Shown here: positions 17,115 to 23,181 of the stretch, piece after piece
Layout of the letters: every line of letters begins with the position of its first letter
Numbering within the stretch: position 1 is the stretch's first letter
Assembly (NCBI GenBank): GCA_016210005.1
Contig: JACQVA010000202.1
Span: forward strand, 1-33,822
Direction of reading: 5' to 3'
From: Deltaproteobacteria bacterium
GTDB lineage: Bacteria > Desulfobacterota > Binatia > HRBIN30 > JACQVA1
Length of the DNA stretch: 33,822 nucleotides
The notes under the pieces: generated by a model
Told to the model about the DNA's origin: nothing
Seen by the model: the letters and a program-made list of their open reading frames with translations, nothing else
The model's database searches: none
Position numbers and translations under genes: made by a program

Positions 17115-17819
17115 TCAGTGGTTGGATTTCTCCTCCGCCTCGGGCAGCCGTGGCGGCTCCGTGGTAACGACGTCCGCGAGCAGCGCCCGTGTTATGTCGT
17201 TGCTCGGCACGCCAGCTTGTTCCGCGGCGAGCACCACACCTTCTCCGATGCTGACGACTCGGGCCTCAACCACTATGCTCCCACCGGTTTCCTCTACCGT
17301 ACCGAACAGCAACGAGTCCGCCCCCGCAAGTCTTCCGATTTGGGCAGTGGTCCGCTCATCGACAAGACCCGAGACGCCGAGTTTTTGCTCGGCAACAATG
17401 CGATTCAGCTGATCACGCTCGACCAGCGTGACGCCACGACCGCGCAGCGCGCGCCGCAATCTTTCCGCGATGGCATCGCCGAAGCGGGTCCGCTGTCCCC
17501 GGTGGAGCAGCGGCATCAGGGCGAGCTTGCCACAGCTGACGCCGCTCGGGGTGAGGTCATTGGCGAGGCGATTGGCCGCGGCCTCAAGGGCTACCGGGGC
17601 ATCGCGTTCTTGTTTGCTCCGTTCGGCTTGCGCCGCTTGCCTCCGGGTCTCGGCCTCTTCGAGTTCCCTAGCTCGCCGTTGCTCGCCCAAGACGCGCCGC
17701 TGCTGTTCGATGATGCGCCGCTCGCGTTCGAGCGCTTCATCTGCCCGCACGCGAGCGGCGGCCCCTGGCAATGCGAGCGCGCAAATCAGGAGCGCGGTGA
17801 GAATTCTGATGCTGCTCAT
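17115..17819 (-). CDS. Exported FlgO/CsgG-like protein
   Basis: A 234-residue protein with a signal peptide (MSSIRILTALLICALALPGA, cleavage near residue 26) and a charged, Glu/Arg/Gln-rich segment at about 28-72 that should form a coiled coil. A FlgO/CsgG-type domain runs from about 80 to 215. The domain text is typical: GKLALMPLLHRGQRTRFGDA, LRRALRGRGVTLVERDQLNR, EQKLGVSGLVDERTTAQIGR, LAGADSLLFGTVEETGGSIV and EARVVSIGEGVVL. FlgO, CsgG and LpoB relatives act at the outer membrane, in flagellar rings, curli export or peptidoglycan synthase activation, but no flagellar or curli genes are nearby. It lacks a clear lipobox. It is the last of four minus-strand genes and starts 33 bases after its neighbour. 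Confidence 0.8.
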   Translation of the reverse strand: MSSIRILTALLICALALPGAAARVRADEALERERRIIEQQRRVLGEQRRARELEEAETRRQAAQAERSKQERDAPVALEAAANRLANDLTPSGVSCGKLALMPLLHRGQRTRFGDAIAERLRRALRGRGVTLVERDQLNRIVAEQKLGVSGLVDERTTAQIGRLAGADSLLFGTVEETGGSIVVEARVVSIGEGVVLAAEQAGVPSNDITRALLADVVTTEPPRLPEAEEKSNH

Positions 17820-17852
17820 GGTCGCCGAACGATCGTTAGCCCCGATAGTGGA

Positions 17853-18503
17853 TCAGCCCTTCTCCATCTCGGCAGTTACCTGCTCGCTCGACTTCCTTAC
17901 GAGGCTAGACACGTCTACGCCTTTGGCGGCGAGATAGCTGCCCAGCGCCAAGTTGACGGAGACAATTGACTTCAGATTGCCGGGGGCAACCGTCGCCAAC
18001 AAGAGCGTATCACCCAGGTTCGCCAGATTCCCCAGGCCGGCGTTGCTCGCGGCATCGACCGCCAGCTTTTCAACGTAGGCCGCCACCCCGACGCGCACGG
18101 CGGCTTCAACCAGCTTGGTGCGATCGGCCTTGTCGAGATTGGGCTTGTCGGCGAGGACCGCGCTGGTCATATCGCTCGCCTCGTCGACGATCCCCAGGTT
18201 CTCCTGGTTCAAGCCGCCTGGCTGTTGCAGCTTCTTCATCGACTCGCTGATCTTCGCCGCGTCCGTAGCATGACCGGTGGCTTCGAGGAGCTTCTGACTG
18301 CCCTCAAGAAACAGCAGCGTCGCCTTTAGGAAGTAGGCAGCCACCGGCGGTGCCGTCGCGGCGGCAGAACCCGATCCGGCGGGCTTCGATGCTGCTGCTT
18401 GCAAAGCCCCCTTCAGAAGATCTCCCCACTGCGCCCTCGCAACCACGCCGGGGACGGTGACCACTGCGACCAGACTCATGACCATGATGACTCGACGCTT
18501 CAT
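17853..18503 (-). CDS. Exported Ala-rich protein of unknown function
   Basis: A 216-residue protein with a clear signal peptide (MKRRVIMVMSLVAVVTVPGV, then VARA before Q25). The mature part is Ala-, Leu- and Lys-rich and probably all-helical, with no motif I recognise. The start at 18503 is firm: AAAGGAGG sits seven bases upstream, the strongest ribosome binding site in this cluster. A GC-rich hairpin (18524-18553) lies just before it. Together these suggest it is made in larger amounts than its operon partners, perhaps as a structural or secreted component. The frame is open upstream of the ATG, but that part has no protein-like character. Confidence 0.75.
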   Translation of the reverse strand: MKRRVIMVMSLVAVVTVPGVVARAQWGDLLKGALQAAASKPAGSGSAAATAPPVAAYFLKATLLFLEGSQKLLEATGHATDAAKISESMKKLQQPGGLNQENLGIVDEASDMTSAVLADKPNLDKADRTKLVEAAVRVGVAAYVEKLAVDAASNAGLGNLANLGDTLLLATVAPGNLKSIVSVNLALGSYLAAKGVDVSSLVRKSSEQVTAEMEKG

Positions 18504-18523
18504 GTTCTCCTCCTTTGGCTGTG

Positions 18524-18553
18524 GAGGGCGGCGGGCGTTACCCGGCCGCCCTC
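18524..18553 (-). repeat. Intra-operon hairpin ahead of the 216-residue protein gene
   Basis: GAGGGCGGC-GGG and CCC-G-GCCGCCCTC pair over twelve base pairs with a single bulged G and a five-base loop. It lies 20 bases downstream of one stop codon and about 20 bases before the start of the next gene. No T tract follows on the minus strand, so it is more likely an mRNA processing or stability element than an intrinsic terminator. Confidence 0.6.
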
Positions 18554-18573
18554 GGTTGACGCGACCAGGACGA

Positions 18574-19503
18574 TCACGGCGCGCGCGTGCTGCTCTGCGC
18601 CCGGGTATCGAGCATCTGTGGACCGATCTTGCCGGCGGCCGAACGGGCGAAGCCCGAGATCGCCGTGGTGTACGCGCCCGACGCCGAAATGTGTTTGGCG
18701 GTGCTGACGTCACCGAACGAGCCCACCACACGTTCTGTCGTCAGCTCGACGGCTTCCACGGTGCCGTCGACCACGGCGAGATAAGTCCCGTCGGCCTGCT
18801 GTCCTTCGTCCGAGACCTTGATTTCACCTTGCACGAGGAACCTGACGCCGTCGCGCAGCGCCACGGCCGCGATGTCGTCGCGCTCGGCGGAGGAGATATC
18901 GGCGACCTCCGCGCCACCCTGCTCCAAGCCGCGGCGGCGCGCCTTGAGGGAGCGGCGCACGTCGAAACCCCGATCGATCAGTTCCTGCTGCAGCAAATCG
19001 ATTACCTCGGCCGCGCCGCGGCGGGTGGTGACGCCGCTGCGTGGCAGAATGCGATAGCTGACCACGGCGAACGTCACCGCCGGCCGGCCGGCGGTCTGCC
19101 TGCGCGATTCCTCTCTCGCCCGCTTGGTCAACTCGGCTGTGCGCACCACCGCCTGCACGCTGGCGAAGCACTGCCCCTGGCCGAACCAGTAGCGGTCGAT
19201 CCGGCGGGCGCCGACGACATCACTCACCGAAACGTTGGCCCCGGGATCGCCGAACATCCCCTTGGCGCGCATCAGCACGTCCCGTAACCCGGCCCCGACT
19301 GCCTGCTCCCGCGAGGCATCGTCCAGCGCCGAGCAGGGCACGCTGCCGATGCCCTCGACCACATGTTCGCCAAAGCCAGCGGCCAGCGGCGGCGGAGCCG
19401 CGACCGGCGCGGGTGCCGGCCGCGCGGCGCAGCCCATTTGCGCCAGTAGGCCTGCGGCACCCGCCGCGCATGCCGCCAGACGCCACGAACCGGGGCGCGT
19501 CAT
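18574..19503 (-). CDS. Exported protein, LPP20-like plus CsgG-like regions
   Basis: A 309-residue protein with an N-terminal hydrophobic export signal and a cysteine at residue 25 in LLAQMGC. That is only a poor lipobox, so lipoprotein status is open. Residues 45-125 (VVEGIGSVPCSAL, REQAVGAGLRDVLMRAKGMF, NVSVSDVV) resemble the alpha/beta pattern of LPP20/FlgP-type domains. Residues 142-300 (TFAVVSYRILP, LLQQELIDRGFDVRRSL, GVRFLVQGEIKVSD, VVDGTVEAVELTTERVVGSF) resemble CsgG/LpoB-type domains. These are fold-level impressions, not motif matches. The start overlaps the stop of the upstream gene (ATGA), so the two are translationally coupled. Confidence 0.7.
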   Translation of the reverse strand: MTRPGSWRLAACAAGAAGLLAQMGCAARPAPAPVAAPPPLAAGFGEHVVEGIGSVPCSALDDASREQAVGAGLRDVLMRAKGMFGDPGANVSVSDVVGARRIDRYWFGQGQCFASVQAVVRTAELTKRAREESRRQTAGRPAVTFAVVSYRILPRSGVTTRRGAAEVIDLLQQELIDRGFDVRRSLKARRRGLEQGGAEVADISSAERDDIAAVALRDGVRFLVQGEIKVSDEGQQADGTYLAVVDGTVEAVELTTERVVGSFGDVSTAKHISASGAYTTAISGFARSAAGKIGPQMLDTRAQSSTRAP

Positions 19504-20834
19504 CTACACTCCTCGGCTTCGCCGCCGAGCAGCCGGCTGGTGGCACAAGCCACCGCCTTGCGGATCGCTTGCCGCGCGTCGGCCGCTTGCGGGGCGTTGT
19601 CCTGCCATCCTTCGATCTCTTCGATTCGCTCAACCCCGACGCCTTCCGCACGGCGGCCGCGGCTATCTGTGATAGTCGCCCACGCCTTGTGGGCGCGTAT
19701 TCGCTTGATCGGGCTGCCGCCGACGATCTGAGTGTTGTAGCCGTCAACGACCACGGCCACTTGCACCTCGGCCGGCGGAAAATTGAGCGAGAAGCGTTGC
19801 AACTCCGCATCGGCGATGCCGTGCGCCGCGGCGAACTGCCGAATCCCCTGTTGCGTGAGGCGTTCGCCCTCCTCGCCGCCGGGCGGCAGCACGGTGAGGC
19901 CGGTGGCGGCAAGCGCATCGGCAGCGGCAAAGGCGGCCATCGCCTCGTCGGCTGCAACAGCGTCGCCGAGAACGGCGCGGGCCTTGGCACTGGTAATCGA
20001 GGCAGTGCTGACCTGGTAACGCTCAGTGCCGACGCCGACGGAGCGAAGGAAGACCCCCACCGTATCGTCGCCCGGCGAGGTGGGGCAGTTGAGCTCAGCG
20101 GTGTCGGCACCGACGGCCTGCACCGTGCATTCGATGCCGGTGTCGGCGGCGGCATTGACGACGGACACCATCATGCCCGGCATGACGCCGTCCTTCCGGC
20201 CGGCTTCTAGCTGCAGCGCCCCAAAGGTGCGGCGCCGCACGCTAGCACTGCGGGCGCGGGCGCCGATCGCTTGGCCGCGTGCTTGCGCCAGACGCGCGAA
20301 CTCCATACCCGCCTTCATGGCTTCATCGTGCAGCCGTTCGAAAGCGGGCCGCTCGCGCAAGCGCAGCACTCGTGCACCGAGCAGGGGCACGCTGGTGAGC
20401 ACGCTCCGGCTCAATGGAGAAAATGCGATCACCGTACCCCCGAGGATGATCTGAGCGACGTGAATCCGCACCGTGTGGCCGGTGGTCAGGGGTACCTGAA
20501 AGCTCTCGGCGCGGTCGTTTGCCAGCGTAATGACGCTGATCAGCACAACGCTATCGGCGTTCAGCAGCGCGCCGCGTGCGTCGTGCCGGTCGCGGCCATT
20601 TGCCGCCGGGGCGAAGGCCGCAGTGAGAGCCTTCTCGGTCTCCAGTGCCCGGGGCAAGAGATGCGTTGGCGGCGTCGCCAGCAGGACATCGCCCCAAACT
20701 GTACTTGGACGCTCGCCGGCACCCGCCCCTTCGCTATGTTCGGCGAGCGCGAGGCTTACGGCGATCAGCAGAGCGCGCCACTGCGCCGAGCGGCACGACG
20801 CGAGGCCCCGGCGGCTTGGTTGGTCTTGGTGCAC
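19500..20834 (-). CDS. Exported protein of unknown function, first gene of four-gene cluster
   Basis: A 444-residue protein. I place the start at GTG 20834, which has AGGAG five bases upstream; the open frame reaches back to a TTG at 20894 with no ribosome binding site. A signal sequence (QWRALLIAVSLALAEHSEGA) follows a polar N-terminus. A beta-rich middle region contains TFGALQLEAGRKDGVMPGMM, VSVVNAAADTGIECTVQAVG and two cysteines that could form a disulfide. The C-terminal part (LTVLPPGGEEGERLTQQGIR, VQVAVVVDGYNTQIVGG) again has an alpha/beta rhythm. A FlgT-like assembly is conceivable because of its neighbours, but I do not recognise the family. It ends in an ATGA overlap with the next gene. 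Confidence 0.7.
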   Translation of the reverse strand: MHQDQPSRRGLASCRSAQWRALLIAVSLALAEHSEGAGAGERPSTVWGDVLLATPPTHLLPRALETEKALTAAFAPAANGRDRHDARGALLNADSVVLISVITLANDRAESFQVPLTTGHTVRIHVAQIILGGTVIAFSPLSRSVLTSVPLLGARVLRLRERPAFERLHDEAMKAGMEFARLAQARGQAIGARARSASVRRRTFGALQLEAGRKDGVMPGMMVSVVNAAADTGIECTVQAVGADTAELNCPTSPGDDTVGVFLRSVGVGTERYQVSTASITSAKARAVLGDAVAADEAMAAFAAADALAATGLTVLPPGGEEGERLTQQGIRQFAAAHGIADAELQRFSLNFPPAEVQVAVVVDGYNTQIVGGSPIKRIRAHKAWATITDSRGRRAEGVGVERIEEIEGWQDNAPQAADARQAIRKAVACATSRLLGGEAEECR

Positions 20835-20914: not shown

Positions 20915-21679
20915 TCATGCGTGCGCTCCTGCCGGGGCAGCTGCGCCCGCGGGATCGCTCGGGTACTCCAGTGGAAACCTCGCCTGCAGCTGCTGGCAGA
21001 GCGCTGAGACTGCCGCCGGGGTAGCGGTGGAGGTCACGCCCGCCTCGGCCAGTGCCGCACGCGTGCGGTCGCCGATGATGCCGTCGATCCTCCCGGGATC
21101 GAATCCCAAACGGATGAGCGCTGCTTGTACGAAGGCGGCCTCTTGATCGGGAACGGTATCAAGCGGGACGCCGATGGCGAGAATGGCGCTCATGGCCATC
21201 TGGCGGTACGGGGAGGTGTCGGCGCCCGCCTTGCCGCTCTTGGCATAGGTGTACACCGCGTCATGGCTGCCGCGGCAGTCGAAATGCCAGGCCTCGCTGC
21301 GCGACGAGACCGGCGCATCGATGATCGGCATGAAGCCGTGCGCGGCCGCGATCTCCCAGAAGCGCGACAGCGTCACCCCGATGGACGCAAGGTCGATGTC
21401 CATCGCCCGCCCGGCCTCGTGCATGCTGCCGCCCGGCGGCGGGCTGTAGGCCTTCTTGCGGCCCTCCTTGTAATCGAGGTGCGACTGCTTTTGCATGTCG
21501 TAACTGCGGAACAGGTCGCTCAGACGCAGCTCGTGCCCGAGTTGCCGCAGATCCTCGATGATGGCGCCAAGTGCCGCCGCCATGTCGGGCGTGCACTTCG
21601 CCATCCGCGCGGGTAACGGCTTGTTCTGGTAAATCGATGCGGTCGTGATCGAGACCAGTGGCGTAGTCAACGTCGTCAT
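20915..21679 (-). CDS. M15 (VanY-like) peptidoglycan peptidase with peptidoglycan-binding domain
   Basis: A 254-residue protein. The M15 zinc-peptidase motifs are present: SMHEAGRAMDIDL (zinc ligands H87 and D94) and SEAWHFDC (catalytic E129, third ligand H132). A PG_binding_1-type helical domain follows at about 175-212 (AALIRLGFDPGRIDGIIGDR). It should cut the stem peptide of peptidoglycan as a D,D-carboxypeptidase or endopeptidase. ATG at 21679 has GGAGGAGG upstream. Unlike most cell-wall enzymes it has no visible signal peptide (MTTLTTPLVSITTASIYQNK), which recalls phage-type endolysins. No holin or phage gene is nearby. Confidence 0.88.
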   Translation of the reverse strand: MTTLTTPLVSITTASIYQNKPLPARMAKCTPDMAAALGAIIEDLRQLGHELRLSDLFRSYDMQKQSHLDYKEGRKKAYSPPPGGSMHEAGRAMDIDLASIGVTLSRFWEIAAAHGFMPIIDAPVSSRSEAWHFDCRGSHDAVYTYAKSGKAGADTSPYRQMAMSAILAIGVPLDTVPDQEAAFVQAALIRLGFDPGRIDGIIGDRTRAALAEAGVTSTATPAAVSALCQQLQARFPLEYPSDPAGAAAPAGAHA

Positions 21680-22095
21680 TACGGTTCCTCCTCCGGATGG
21701 CCGCGCCGGCAGCACGGCAGCAGCTATGCCCCGCGAGCGCTTGCTCAGCGCCGGGCGGCGGCGCCGGAACGCCGGAGAACGGCTGCGCAAACGCTGCAAC
21801 GGTGCCCACTATTTGTGAGCGCGCGCTCGATCAACTTCGCCCACTCACTCGCATGGCACGCGCAAGAGTGTCAAGGATATAGGTAAAAACCCCTAGTACC
21901 TGATTGTCTGAATCATAAGTCGGGCGACCAACAACTGGGGCTCGCGACAACTACGTGTGGTGGGCACGAGGAGACGGAGGGGCGCACTTGGCGGAGGTGG
22001 CGCGGCCAATTCTCGCCTGCAGCTTCGGCGTGCGGGCGGGATCCCCGTGCCCACAAGTGGTACGGGGATCCCGCTGCGCCAATCAACTACGGAGG
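21680..22095. other. Intergenic stretch between the M15 peptidase and the SGNH hydrolase
   Basis: No protein-like frame was found. The stretch should hold the promoter of the M15 gene. A TTGACA on the minus strand at 21874-21869 is a perfect -35 box, but the sequence at the expected -10 distance is poor. The only other structured element is the long inverted repeat at 22036-22074. Confidence 0.4.
22036..22074. repeat. 13-bp perfect inverted repeat
   Basis: GCGGGATCCCCGT and ACGGGGATCCCGC are perfect complements separated by 13 bases, and the loop itself contains CCAC-AA-GTGG, so the whole 39 bases can fold into one long hairpin. It starts 22 bases beyond the stop codon of the SGNH hydrolase gene. 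With no T tract on either side it looks more like a REP-type element or a Rho-independent 3' stabiliser than an intrinsic terminator. Confidence 0.7.
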
Positions 22096-23181
22096 TTACG
22101 GCGTTGCCGGGTTGTAAACCGAGAGCGCCCACCCCATGCGTTCGTGGCCGTAGCGGTTCCACACGGGGTTCTTGCCGCCGACGATCTGGCTGTCGCTGTA
22201 GTCCGGCGCGCCCGAGCCGGAGCCGCTGCCGCCGATCAGGCCGATCCAGATGGTCGAGCCGGTGTAGGTCGCATGGGTGTTGTCGGACTGGATGTAGTCG
22301 TAGCTGGTGCCGGCGCTGACCAGGTGCACGTTGGCGTCGCGGATGGTCGAGCGCAGGGTGCTGCTGAGGCGGGTCACATAGGCGGCCTCGGACTCGCCTT
22401 GGACGTAGCGCAGCGCCTCGGAGTCGATCTGGCCATCGCCGTTCGAGTCGTAGTCCGCGCCCATGTACTGCGCGAAGCTGTCGGCGCAGGCGAAGCCGTA
22501 GGTGTTGGCGAAGTTGCACGCGCGCCAGTTCATCTTGACCAAGTAGGGCAGAAACTTGCTCTGCTTGTTGACCTTCTGGCCGGTGCTCGGGTCGTTGCAG
22601 CCGCTCAGAGCGTTGTCGGCGTCGTAGCCCGGGTAGTAGAGGTTGGTGATCACCTTTAGCCTGGTGCCCGAGTACGCATTGGCGTTGATGTACTGCATCG
22701 CCGCTTGGAGGTAGGTGGTGCAGTTGTTCAGCGCCGTATCCAGGACGCCGTAGTTGCAGGTGCCGGTCTGGCCGGCGAAGTTGCTGCGCGCTTGCAGGCC
22801 GTCGTTGCCGCACATCTCGAAGGTCACGATGCGGGTGTTGCTCGACTGCATGTACGAGCGCTCGGCCACGATCTTGTTGTTGTAAATGTCGTCGGCCTTG
22901 GCGCCCGACTTGGTTCGCCGTACCACTTCGATGTCGGCGTTCCACAGCTTGGCGAGGTACTCACCATCGACTGTCGGCGCTGCCCGCTTGATGACGCGCG
23001 AGAGTGACCCGTAGTAACCGGCGTAAATCGAGTCGCCGTAGGCCGTCACGCGATACTTGGTGCTAGTGCCTGAACGGTCGATGGTCCACGACAGGTTTTG
23101 CGTGAGTGTGCTGGCCATGGCCTGCGAGCCGAGTGCGATCACGGCGCCGAACACGACCAGACGAATGAGCTTGCGATCCAT
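22096..23181 (-). CDS. Secreted SGNH/GDSL-type hydrolase
   Basis: A 361-residue protein with a signal peptide (MDRKLIRLVVFGAVIALGSQ, cleavage near AMA-S24). SGNH catalytic blocks are present: block I AYGDSIYAG with nucleophile S51, block III CGNDG with N126, and block V SDNTH with D300 and H303. It should hydrolyse an ester, for example of a lipid, an acetylated sugar or a polymer; the substrate is unknown. Residues 243-256 hold an EF-hand/dockerin-like calcium loop (DYDSNGDGQIDSEA) lacking the usual acidic residue at position 12. Six cysteines in the mature part suggest disulfides. It appears monocistronic. Confidence 0.85.
   Translation of the reverse strand: MDRKLIRLVVFGAVIALGSQAMASTLTQNLSWTIDRSGTSTKYRVTAYGDSIYAGYYGSLSRVIKRAAPTVDGEYLAKLWNADIEVVRRTKSGAKADDIYNNKIVAERSYMQSSNTRIVTFEMCGNDGLQARSNFAGQTGTCNYGVLDTALNNCTTYLQAAMQYINANAYSGTRLKVITNLYYPGYDADNALSGCNDPSTGQKVNKQSKFLPYLVKMNWRACNFANTYGFACADSFAQYMGADYDSNGDGQIDSEALRYVQGESEAAYVTRLSSTLRSTIRDANVHLVSAGTSYDYIQSDNTHATYTGSTIWIGLIGGSGSGSGAPDYSDSQIVGGKNPVWNRYGHERMGWALSVYNPATP

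Follow-up and report, generated by a model that had tools for sequence, protein, structure and literature searches.

FlgT, FlgO and FlgP are known as parts of the flagellum, and CsgG and PelC as export rings. One study describes the H ring of Vibrio as made of FlgT and FlgO, with FlgP as an outer-membrane lipoprotein that is probably associated with it (PMC6504787), and another takes outer-membrane-associated disks to have arisen several times in evolution (PMC5758724). The locus described here lies in a stretch of 33,822 nucleotides from a Deltaproteobacteria bacterium (contig JACQVA010000202.1), referred to as the window throughout, and comprises four adjacent genes for exported proteins, g1 to g4. 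Three of them, g1-g2-g3, form a real, rare and patchy unit that occurs in four genomes and joins two proteins related to FlgT, CsgG and PelC, by predicted fold or through their relatives, with a helical protein of no recognised family. The parts of this trio belong to known superfamilies; in the open-access papers covered, searched with narrow terms, no description of the combination was found.

The genes concerned, together with the neighbour upstream of g1, are the following:

g1: 19500-20834, minus strand; GTG start, 444 amino acids, exported; N-terminal part of no assigned fold, predicted beta-barrel at about residues 181-266, predicted CsgG/FlgT_M-like C-terminal domain at about residues 268-438 (mean predicted local distance difference test score, pLDDT, of the model 49)
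g2: 18574-19503, minus strand; 309 amino acids, exported; FlgT-type, with an FlgT_N/LPP20-like and a PelC/FlgT_M-like domain assigned via relatives, the window protein itself having no Pfam family
g3: 17853-18503, minus strand; 216 amino acids, exported; predicted helical bundle of no recognised family, seen only adjoining g1-g2
g4: 17115-17819, minus strand; 234 amino acids, exported; charged coiled-coil-like stretch (by eye) followed by an FlgO/CsgG/LpoB domain; not conserved with the trio
VanY (D-Ala-D-Ala carboxypeptidase-like) with a peptidoglycan-binding domain: 20915-21799, minus strand; upstream of g1 and co-directional, over the Pfam cut-off; association with the trio weak

The original prediction, made from the window alone, had proposed four adjacent minus-strand genes with export signals, the first two coupled by ATGA, and had remarked on the lack of flagellar or curli genes. 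The four open reading frames and the coupling are confirmed: the stop of g1 and the start of g2 overlap in ATGA, GAGGAG precedes the g2 ATG and AAAGGAGGAG the g3 ATG, no ribosome site is evident before g4, and the coordinates leave gaps of 70 bases between g2 and g3 and 33 bases between g3 and g4. N-terminal signals were found as well. Specifically, the N-terminal hydrophobicity was equalled in 31 (g1), 9 (g3), 14 (g4) and 328 (g2) of 2000 composition shuffles, so that the export signal of the window g2 is weak by this test. A hydrophobic N-terminus is present in 12 of 12 proteins checked among the 13 trio and g4 proteins (G586 g1, the start of which is unclear, was left out), the window g2 being the weakest, and the g2 homologue of G312 has a clear lipobox (LVAC). 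No flagellar or curli genes were seen among the scanned window genes, which do not include every open reading frame of the window, and no search aimed at CsgA, CsgB, CsgE or CsgF was made; nor were flagellar genes seen next to the homologues, as judged by eye and in part with Pfam. PADLOC gave no match for the eight proteins submitted.

Conservation of the trio

The four carriers are labelled G000 (the window's genome), G312 (same class), and G463 and G586 (another class of the same phylum), and the whole-genome searches covered this phylum. The order and orientation of g1-g2-g3 are common to all four genomes, and g1 and g2 overlap in each of them, by 4 bases in G000, G463 and G586 and by 13 in G312. 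In G312, relatives of g2 (43% over 272 residues) and g1 (33% over 169 residues) directly adjoin the g3 relative in the same order. A two-row g2 profile led to G463, where g1 (439 amino acids), g2 (563 amino acids) and g3 (226 amino acids) are consecutive, and a search of that genome's class yielded G586 with all three genes. A comparison of G463 with G586 shows all three genes to be strongly constrained (pN 0.13-0.21, pS 0.72-0.76).

The trio is found in few genomes. In a draw of 145 genomes of the window's class, g3 had one relative beyond its own genome, that of G312 (2/145), and g2 occurred in 2 of 148 genomes of this class, the same two. In the class of G463, the g3 profile matched 2 of 155 genomes (G463 and G586) and the g1 profile three, namely the same two, over most of its length, and G561, whose g1 is an internally deleted copy on a 3.6-kb contig that holds no g3. 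Even draws from the phylum gave g2 matches in 4 of 395 genomes, two of them dropped as chance (G064, G204), and g3 matches in 3 of 395, one of them dropped (G505). Apart from this G505 match, g3 was found only together with g1 and g2 in the genomes searched. It is because of this recurrence and these genome counts that we regard the trio as a real, rare and patchy unit.

The dropped matches are readily described. The G064 g2 match is an open frame opposite a murB/murC-like pair and that of G204 an oxidoreductase-like reading frame (both named by eye), the G505 g3 match is a membrane-transporter-like reading frame, and a g2 match in G016 (3.3e-4), a 208-amino-acid reading frame in a frame overlapped by others, was also judged to be chance. 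Single-sequence searches reached little further: the window g2 found its own genome and G016 among 39 genomes, and the window g1 found itself among 247 genomes of the phylum. A contig scan with the window g2 alone returned no relatives, and one with the g2 alignment A1 returned JAUIFY010000101.1, which is the G312 contig (G312:C95) reversed, base for base. Viral contig scans gave no match, and plasmids gave none for the window g2 or the G463 g3; with the G463 g2 as query, three Aeromonas plasmid records were matched, two of them annotated as FlgT. A three-row g2 alignment (A4), in which the G463 N-terminus is misplaced by an insertion, was used solely for scanning fetched loci.

As a separate observation, the deleted g1 copy of G561 (G561:C101, L034/L049) lies beside another FlgT_N-type gene, without g3, and has the appearance of a decaying trio.

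Relationship of g2 and g1 to FlgT, CsgG and PelC

The sequence relationship to FlgT was traced through relatives of g2. The G463 g2 matches Pfam FlgT_N over the cut-off (1.3e-7), and an alignment of 24 g2-type sequences (A9: 2 full trio members, 4 fragments of two more and 18 paralogues) contains 20 rows that match FlgT_N and 5 that match LpoB at E <=0.1. Aligned by hhalign with an annotated Aeromonas FlgT, A9 gave a probability of 93 and an E-value of 2.7e-7 over FlgT_N and most of FlgT_M; Pfam itself gave no FlgT_M match, and no FlgT_C match in g1 or g2. Against solved structures, the first domain of A9 matched chain 9hmf_C, annotated as 'Lipoprotein, putative' (1.1e-7), and the second PelC (6.5e-4), with a weak match to a flagellar basal-body protein of 8z5n (0.037). 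We suspect, and no more than suspect, that 9hmf is Campylobacter FlgP. By phmmer, the window g2 found nothing among structures below E 0.37. Judged by its relatives, g2 is of FlgT type, with FlgT_N and a putative PelC/FlgT_M-like domain. The initial description of the second protein as LPP20 plus CsgG-type stands in the form of an FlgT_N/LPP20-like and a CsgG-like part via relatives, but not as a Pfam match of the window protein. The g2 proteins of G463 (L015:6498-8189) and G586 (L019:1501-3198) carry about 170 inserted residues rich in Gly, Ser and Ala that are not in the window g2.

Beyond the trio, 111 of 155 genomes of the class of G463 contain relatives of its g2, related mainly through the FlgT_N part, with up to 8 matches per genome. 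Many of these are open frames of about 370-410 amino acids, and those that were read have a CsgG-like second part.

For g1, the relationship comes from a predicted fold. The AlphaFold2 model is poor over residues 1-190, and much of its C-terminal half is usable. Foldseek returned nine matches with E <=0.001, the first being FlgT (3w1e, 1.7e-4); the other eight are one LPHT-ring chain (8z5n, 1.9e-4), six chains of the CsgG structure 4uv2, and 7rxu (Cj1090c, an LptE-like protein). By VIA, residues 268-438 align with CsgG 6lqh (Z 11.3, root-mean-square deviation (rmsd) 5.0, 160 aligned), with PelC 5t10 (Z 10.0, rmsd 3.7, 110 aligned) and with residues 120-283 of the LPHT-ring chain 8z5n_0, presumably FlgT (Z 8.9, rmsd 3.8, 129 aligned). 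The barrel-like part preceding it (residues 184-266) aligns with an initial stretch of V-ATPase subunits (Z up to 9.7, rmsd 1.7, 70 aligned), and most of it is missing from the G312 protein. The C-terminal half of g1 is, on a weak model, predicted to fold like FlgT, CsgG and PelC, and the CsgG-like domains of the trio are in general predictions from models or profiles. At the level of sequence, phmmer with the window g1 found nothing among structures, and the g1 profile matched solely ribosomal proteins (E >=0.18, judged chance) among the sequences of solved structures.

Transmembrane-like windows after residue 50 were absent from 11 of 13 proteins by a test that is blind to beta hairpins; the window g1 has one marginal window. 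A transmembrane-like stretch from about residue 116 was observed in G312 g1 (L008:9633-10697) and is not shown by the other g1 proteins.

The predicted helical protein g3 and the fourth gene

The g3 model is all-helical with a confident core (mean pLDDT 77.5). Foldseek gave no match under 0.001 (best E 0.26), the best VIA match (Z 7.5) is under the stated noise level for helical bundles, and the g3 profile found nothing better than 0.54 among the sequences of solved structures; the fold of g3 may nonetheless be a known one. None of g1, g2 and g3 has a Pfam or NCBIfam match over cut-off. The first protein, which the original prediction could not place, receives a CsgG/FlgT-like predicted fold in its C-terminal half.

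The fourth gene differs from the other three in both respects, family and conservation. As proposed, it encodes an FlgO/CsgG-type domain, after a coiled coil recognised by eye: FlgO (9.4e-10; 38.9 bits against a cut-off of 22.6), CsgG (5.6e-7) and LpoB (4.6e-5) all exceed the curated Pfam cut-offs, and g4 is the only one of the four to reach that of the CsgG family. It has no BLASTP similarity to one Aeromonas FlgO and nothing below E 0.1 by phmmer against structures. A single-sequence search of 58 genomes matched its own genome alone, at g4 and on contig C250, and none of the 57 others. In G312, the gene downstream of g3, which overlaps it by four bases, encodes a TPR protein that has a hydrophobic segment at its C-terminus (by eye), and the stretches read of G463 and G586 showed no FlgO/CsgG-type gene downstream of g3. 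The conserved unit does not include g4. The C250 match (L005:1342-2370) combines CsgG and TPR parts behind a lipoprotein-like start and shares 42% identity with part of g4.

Comparison with known systems

The trio resembles the FlgT/FlgO/FlgP H ring of Vibrio and Aeromonas in the FlgT_N and putative FlgT_M-like domains of g2 (via relatives), in the FlgO domain of the adjoining g4, and in the exported products of neighbouring genes. It differs in that neither FlgT_C nor LPP20 is matched by Pfam in g1-g4, in that its constant partner is the unrelated, helical g3, and in its occurrence in genomes where FlhA was not found. Specifically, a search for the flagellum marker FlhA (PF00771) that was positive in 4 of 14 control genomes, including E. 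coli, found none in G000, G586 or G561. In G312 and G463, flhA and the trio are on separate contigs, and the loci read of these two genomes (by eye, partly with Pfam) showed no recognisable flagellar genes next to the trio homologues. Because FlhA was not found in two of its carriers, the trio seems to be independent of the flagellum.

To the outer-membrane rings of CsgG (curli) and PelC (Pel polysaccharide), the trio is linked by the predicted fold of the C-terminal half of g1 and, for PelC, by the second domain of the g2-type profile. Unlike at those systems, no curli subunits or Pel genes were recognised near the trio; g1-g3 stay below the CsgG family cut-off, and a genome-wide CsgG search of four genomes had no trio gene among its matches. 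The window's genome also holds, apart from the trio, a three-gene set CsgG - DUF4810 - GNA1162-like (G000:C182, L066:4541-6344). Like the trio, it is a run of three genes, of which two, of CsgG/GNA1162 type, have exported products and the third is small, and we read GNA1162 as akin to the CsgG fold; unlike the trio, it consists of other families and has another gene order and other domains, and neither DUF4810 nor GNA1162-like domains were matched in g1-g3, DUF4810 being absent from g3 by Pfam.

A proposed ring or collar outside the flagellum

These data are best explained by a model in which g1-g2-g3 would be an operon of three genes encoding an envelope complex based on the FlgT/CsgG/PelC fold. 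Both g1 and g2 would be exported to the periplasm and, by analogy with FlgT, CsgG and PelC, most likely form a ring or collar on the periplasmic side of the outer membrane, with g3, an exported helical bundle, as their obligate partner. The complex would not be part of the flagellum, and g4, of CsgG/FlgO fold, would be an accessory added downstream in the window's genome, a local addition of the same fold class. We consider the chances about even that the trio encodes such a periplasmic ring or collar, associated with the outer membrane, made of CsgG-fold subunits partnered by g3 and separate from the flagellum. The more far-reaching idea, that a split FlgT-like pair and a new helical protein make up an undescribed non-flagellar outer-membrane ring machine, a collar for an export or surface structure, is tentative and on balance doubtful. 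If true, a conserved operon joining two such folds and an orphan protein, with no FlhA found, would mean that the ring module lives outside the flagellum, and the trio would offer a small, defined system for testing this.

The original prediction is partly supported. The conserved trio, the FlgT_N/LPP20-like and CsgG-like make-up of g2 (via relatives), the CsgG/FlgT-like predicted fold of g1 and the two carriers in which FlhA was not found speak for it; membership of the FlgO-like fourth gene is not supported. The co-occurrence that it proposed to check holds for three genes, g1-g3, together in four genomes, and leaves g4 outside the unit.

Several observations weigh against a FlgT-like ring outside the flagellum. 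The window g2 matches no Pfam family, its FlgT_N label coming via relatives, and 18 of the 24 A9 rows are FlgT_N paralogues outside the trio. Over its FlgT_N stretch, the G463 g2 also matches the NCBIfam lipoprotein LipL46 (9.7e-9, far under the 400-bit cut-off), the best of the matches, all far under cut-off, of seven proteins from the relatives' loci; because LipL46 resembles this same stretch, the N-terminal domain of g2 is wider than FlgT and not specific to it. The g1 model is poor, the TM-scores to its best matches are low (0.16-0.25 by query length, with rmsd of about 7-18), and the g1 profile gives no sequence alignment with FlgT (E 0.4). Constraint is much less clear for the diverged pairs of the window and G312 (pN 0.41-0.49, pS 0.58-0.66) than for G463 and G586. 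FlhA is present in two of the four carriers, G312 and G463. The G000 draft is 97.6% complete, and G586 is 96% complete with 6% contamination, and trio contigs are short (5.8 kb in G586, 19 kb in G312). Finally, no partner barrel was found, and the CsgG fold also occurs in proteins for which no ring formation is known.

Part of the same evidence would suit an export gate, in which g1 and g2 would form a PelC- or CsgG-like periplasmic funnel guiding a polymer or protein through the outer membrane, with g3 as substrate or plug. CsgG and PelC are indeed the best-scoring structural matches of g1 residues 268-438, the g2-type profile matches PelC, and the stretch from about residue 116 of G312 g1 is transmembrane-like. 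However, the loci read (by eye, partly with Pfam) showed no recognisable beta-barrel partner, polysaccharide synthase or curli subunit near the trio, and 11 of 13 proteins lack a transmembrane-like window after residue 50, beta hairpins being invisible to the test; we consider such a gate unlikely. LpoB-like action on peptidoglycan synthases or hydrolases, in conjunction with the neighbouring carboxypeptidase, is a quite improbable role for the locus: the LpoB match of g4 over the Pfam cut-off, the 5 of 24 g2-type rows that match LpoB, and the VanY-type genes that lie upstream both in the window (match over cut-off) and in G312 (2.7e-4, below cut-off, two genes upstream of g1) point towards it, but the two VanY-type proteins share little similarity (E 0.002), another gene intervenes between VanY and g1 in G312, and no VanY-type gene was seen in the G463 locus (by eye).

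The relationship to FlgT_N and FlgT_M, and the presence of FlhA in G312 and G463, could also indicate that the trio is a flagellar accessory, an FlgT-like H-ring part that would persist as a relic where flagella have been lost. Yet flhA and the trio lie on different contigs in these two genomes, no flagellar genes were recognised around the trio, and FlgT_C was not found in g1 or g2 by Pfam; moreover, G586, in which FlhA was not found, has open reading frames for g2 and g3, and each of its three genes is constrained relative to G463, although the start of G586 g1 is unclear. This explanation appears very improbable, and the periplasmic ring or collar outside the flagellum is the reading we prefer.

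Genomic neighbourhood

A helicase, peptidases and a membrane protein were recognised around the trio in G312, and restriction-modification and HD-type genes (by eye) in G463. Near the G463 trio, a short reading frame (L015:9818-10189, minus strand) contains a CHAT-like piece (Pfam 3.2e-5, just under cut-off) followed by an FlgT_N-like stretch (by eye).

In the window, the product of a gene at 22096-23181 on the minus strand begins with a signal-like sequence and weakly matches GDSL lipase (0.0029, below cut-off). At the end of the contig (31988-33820, minus strand), a gene for a caspase-like (C14) peptidase, which runs off the contig, is followed by an exported DUF4384 protein. Part of this DUF4384 protein resembles the g2 proteins of G463 and G586 by BLASTP (E 0.002 and 5e-4, respectively), and we read the matching part as an FlgT_N domain.

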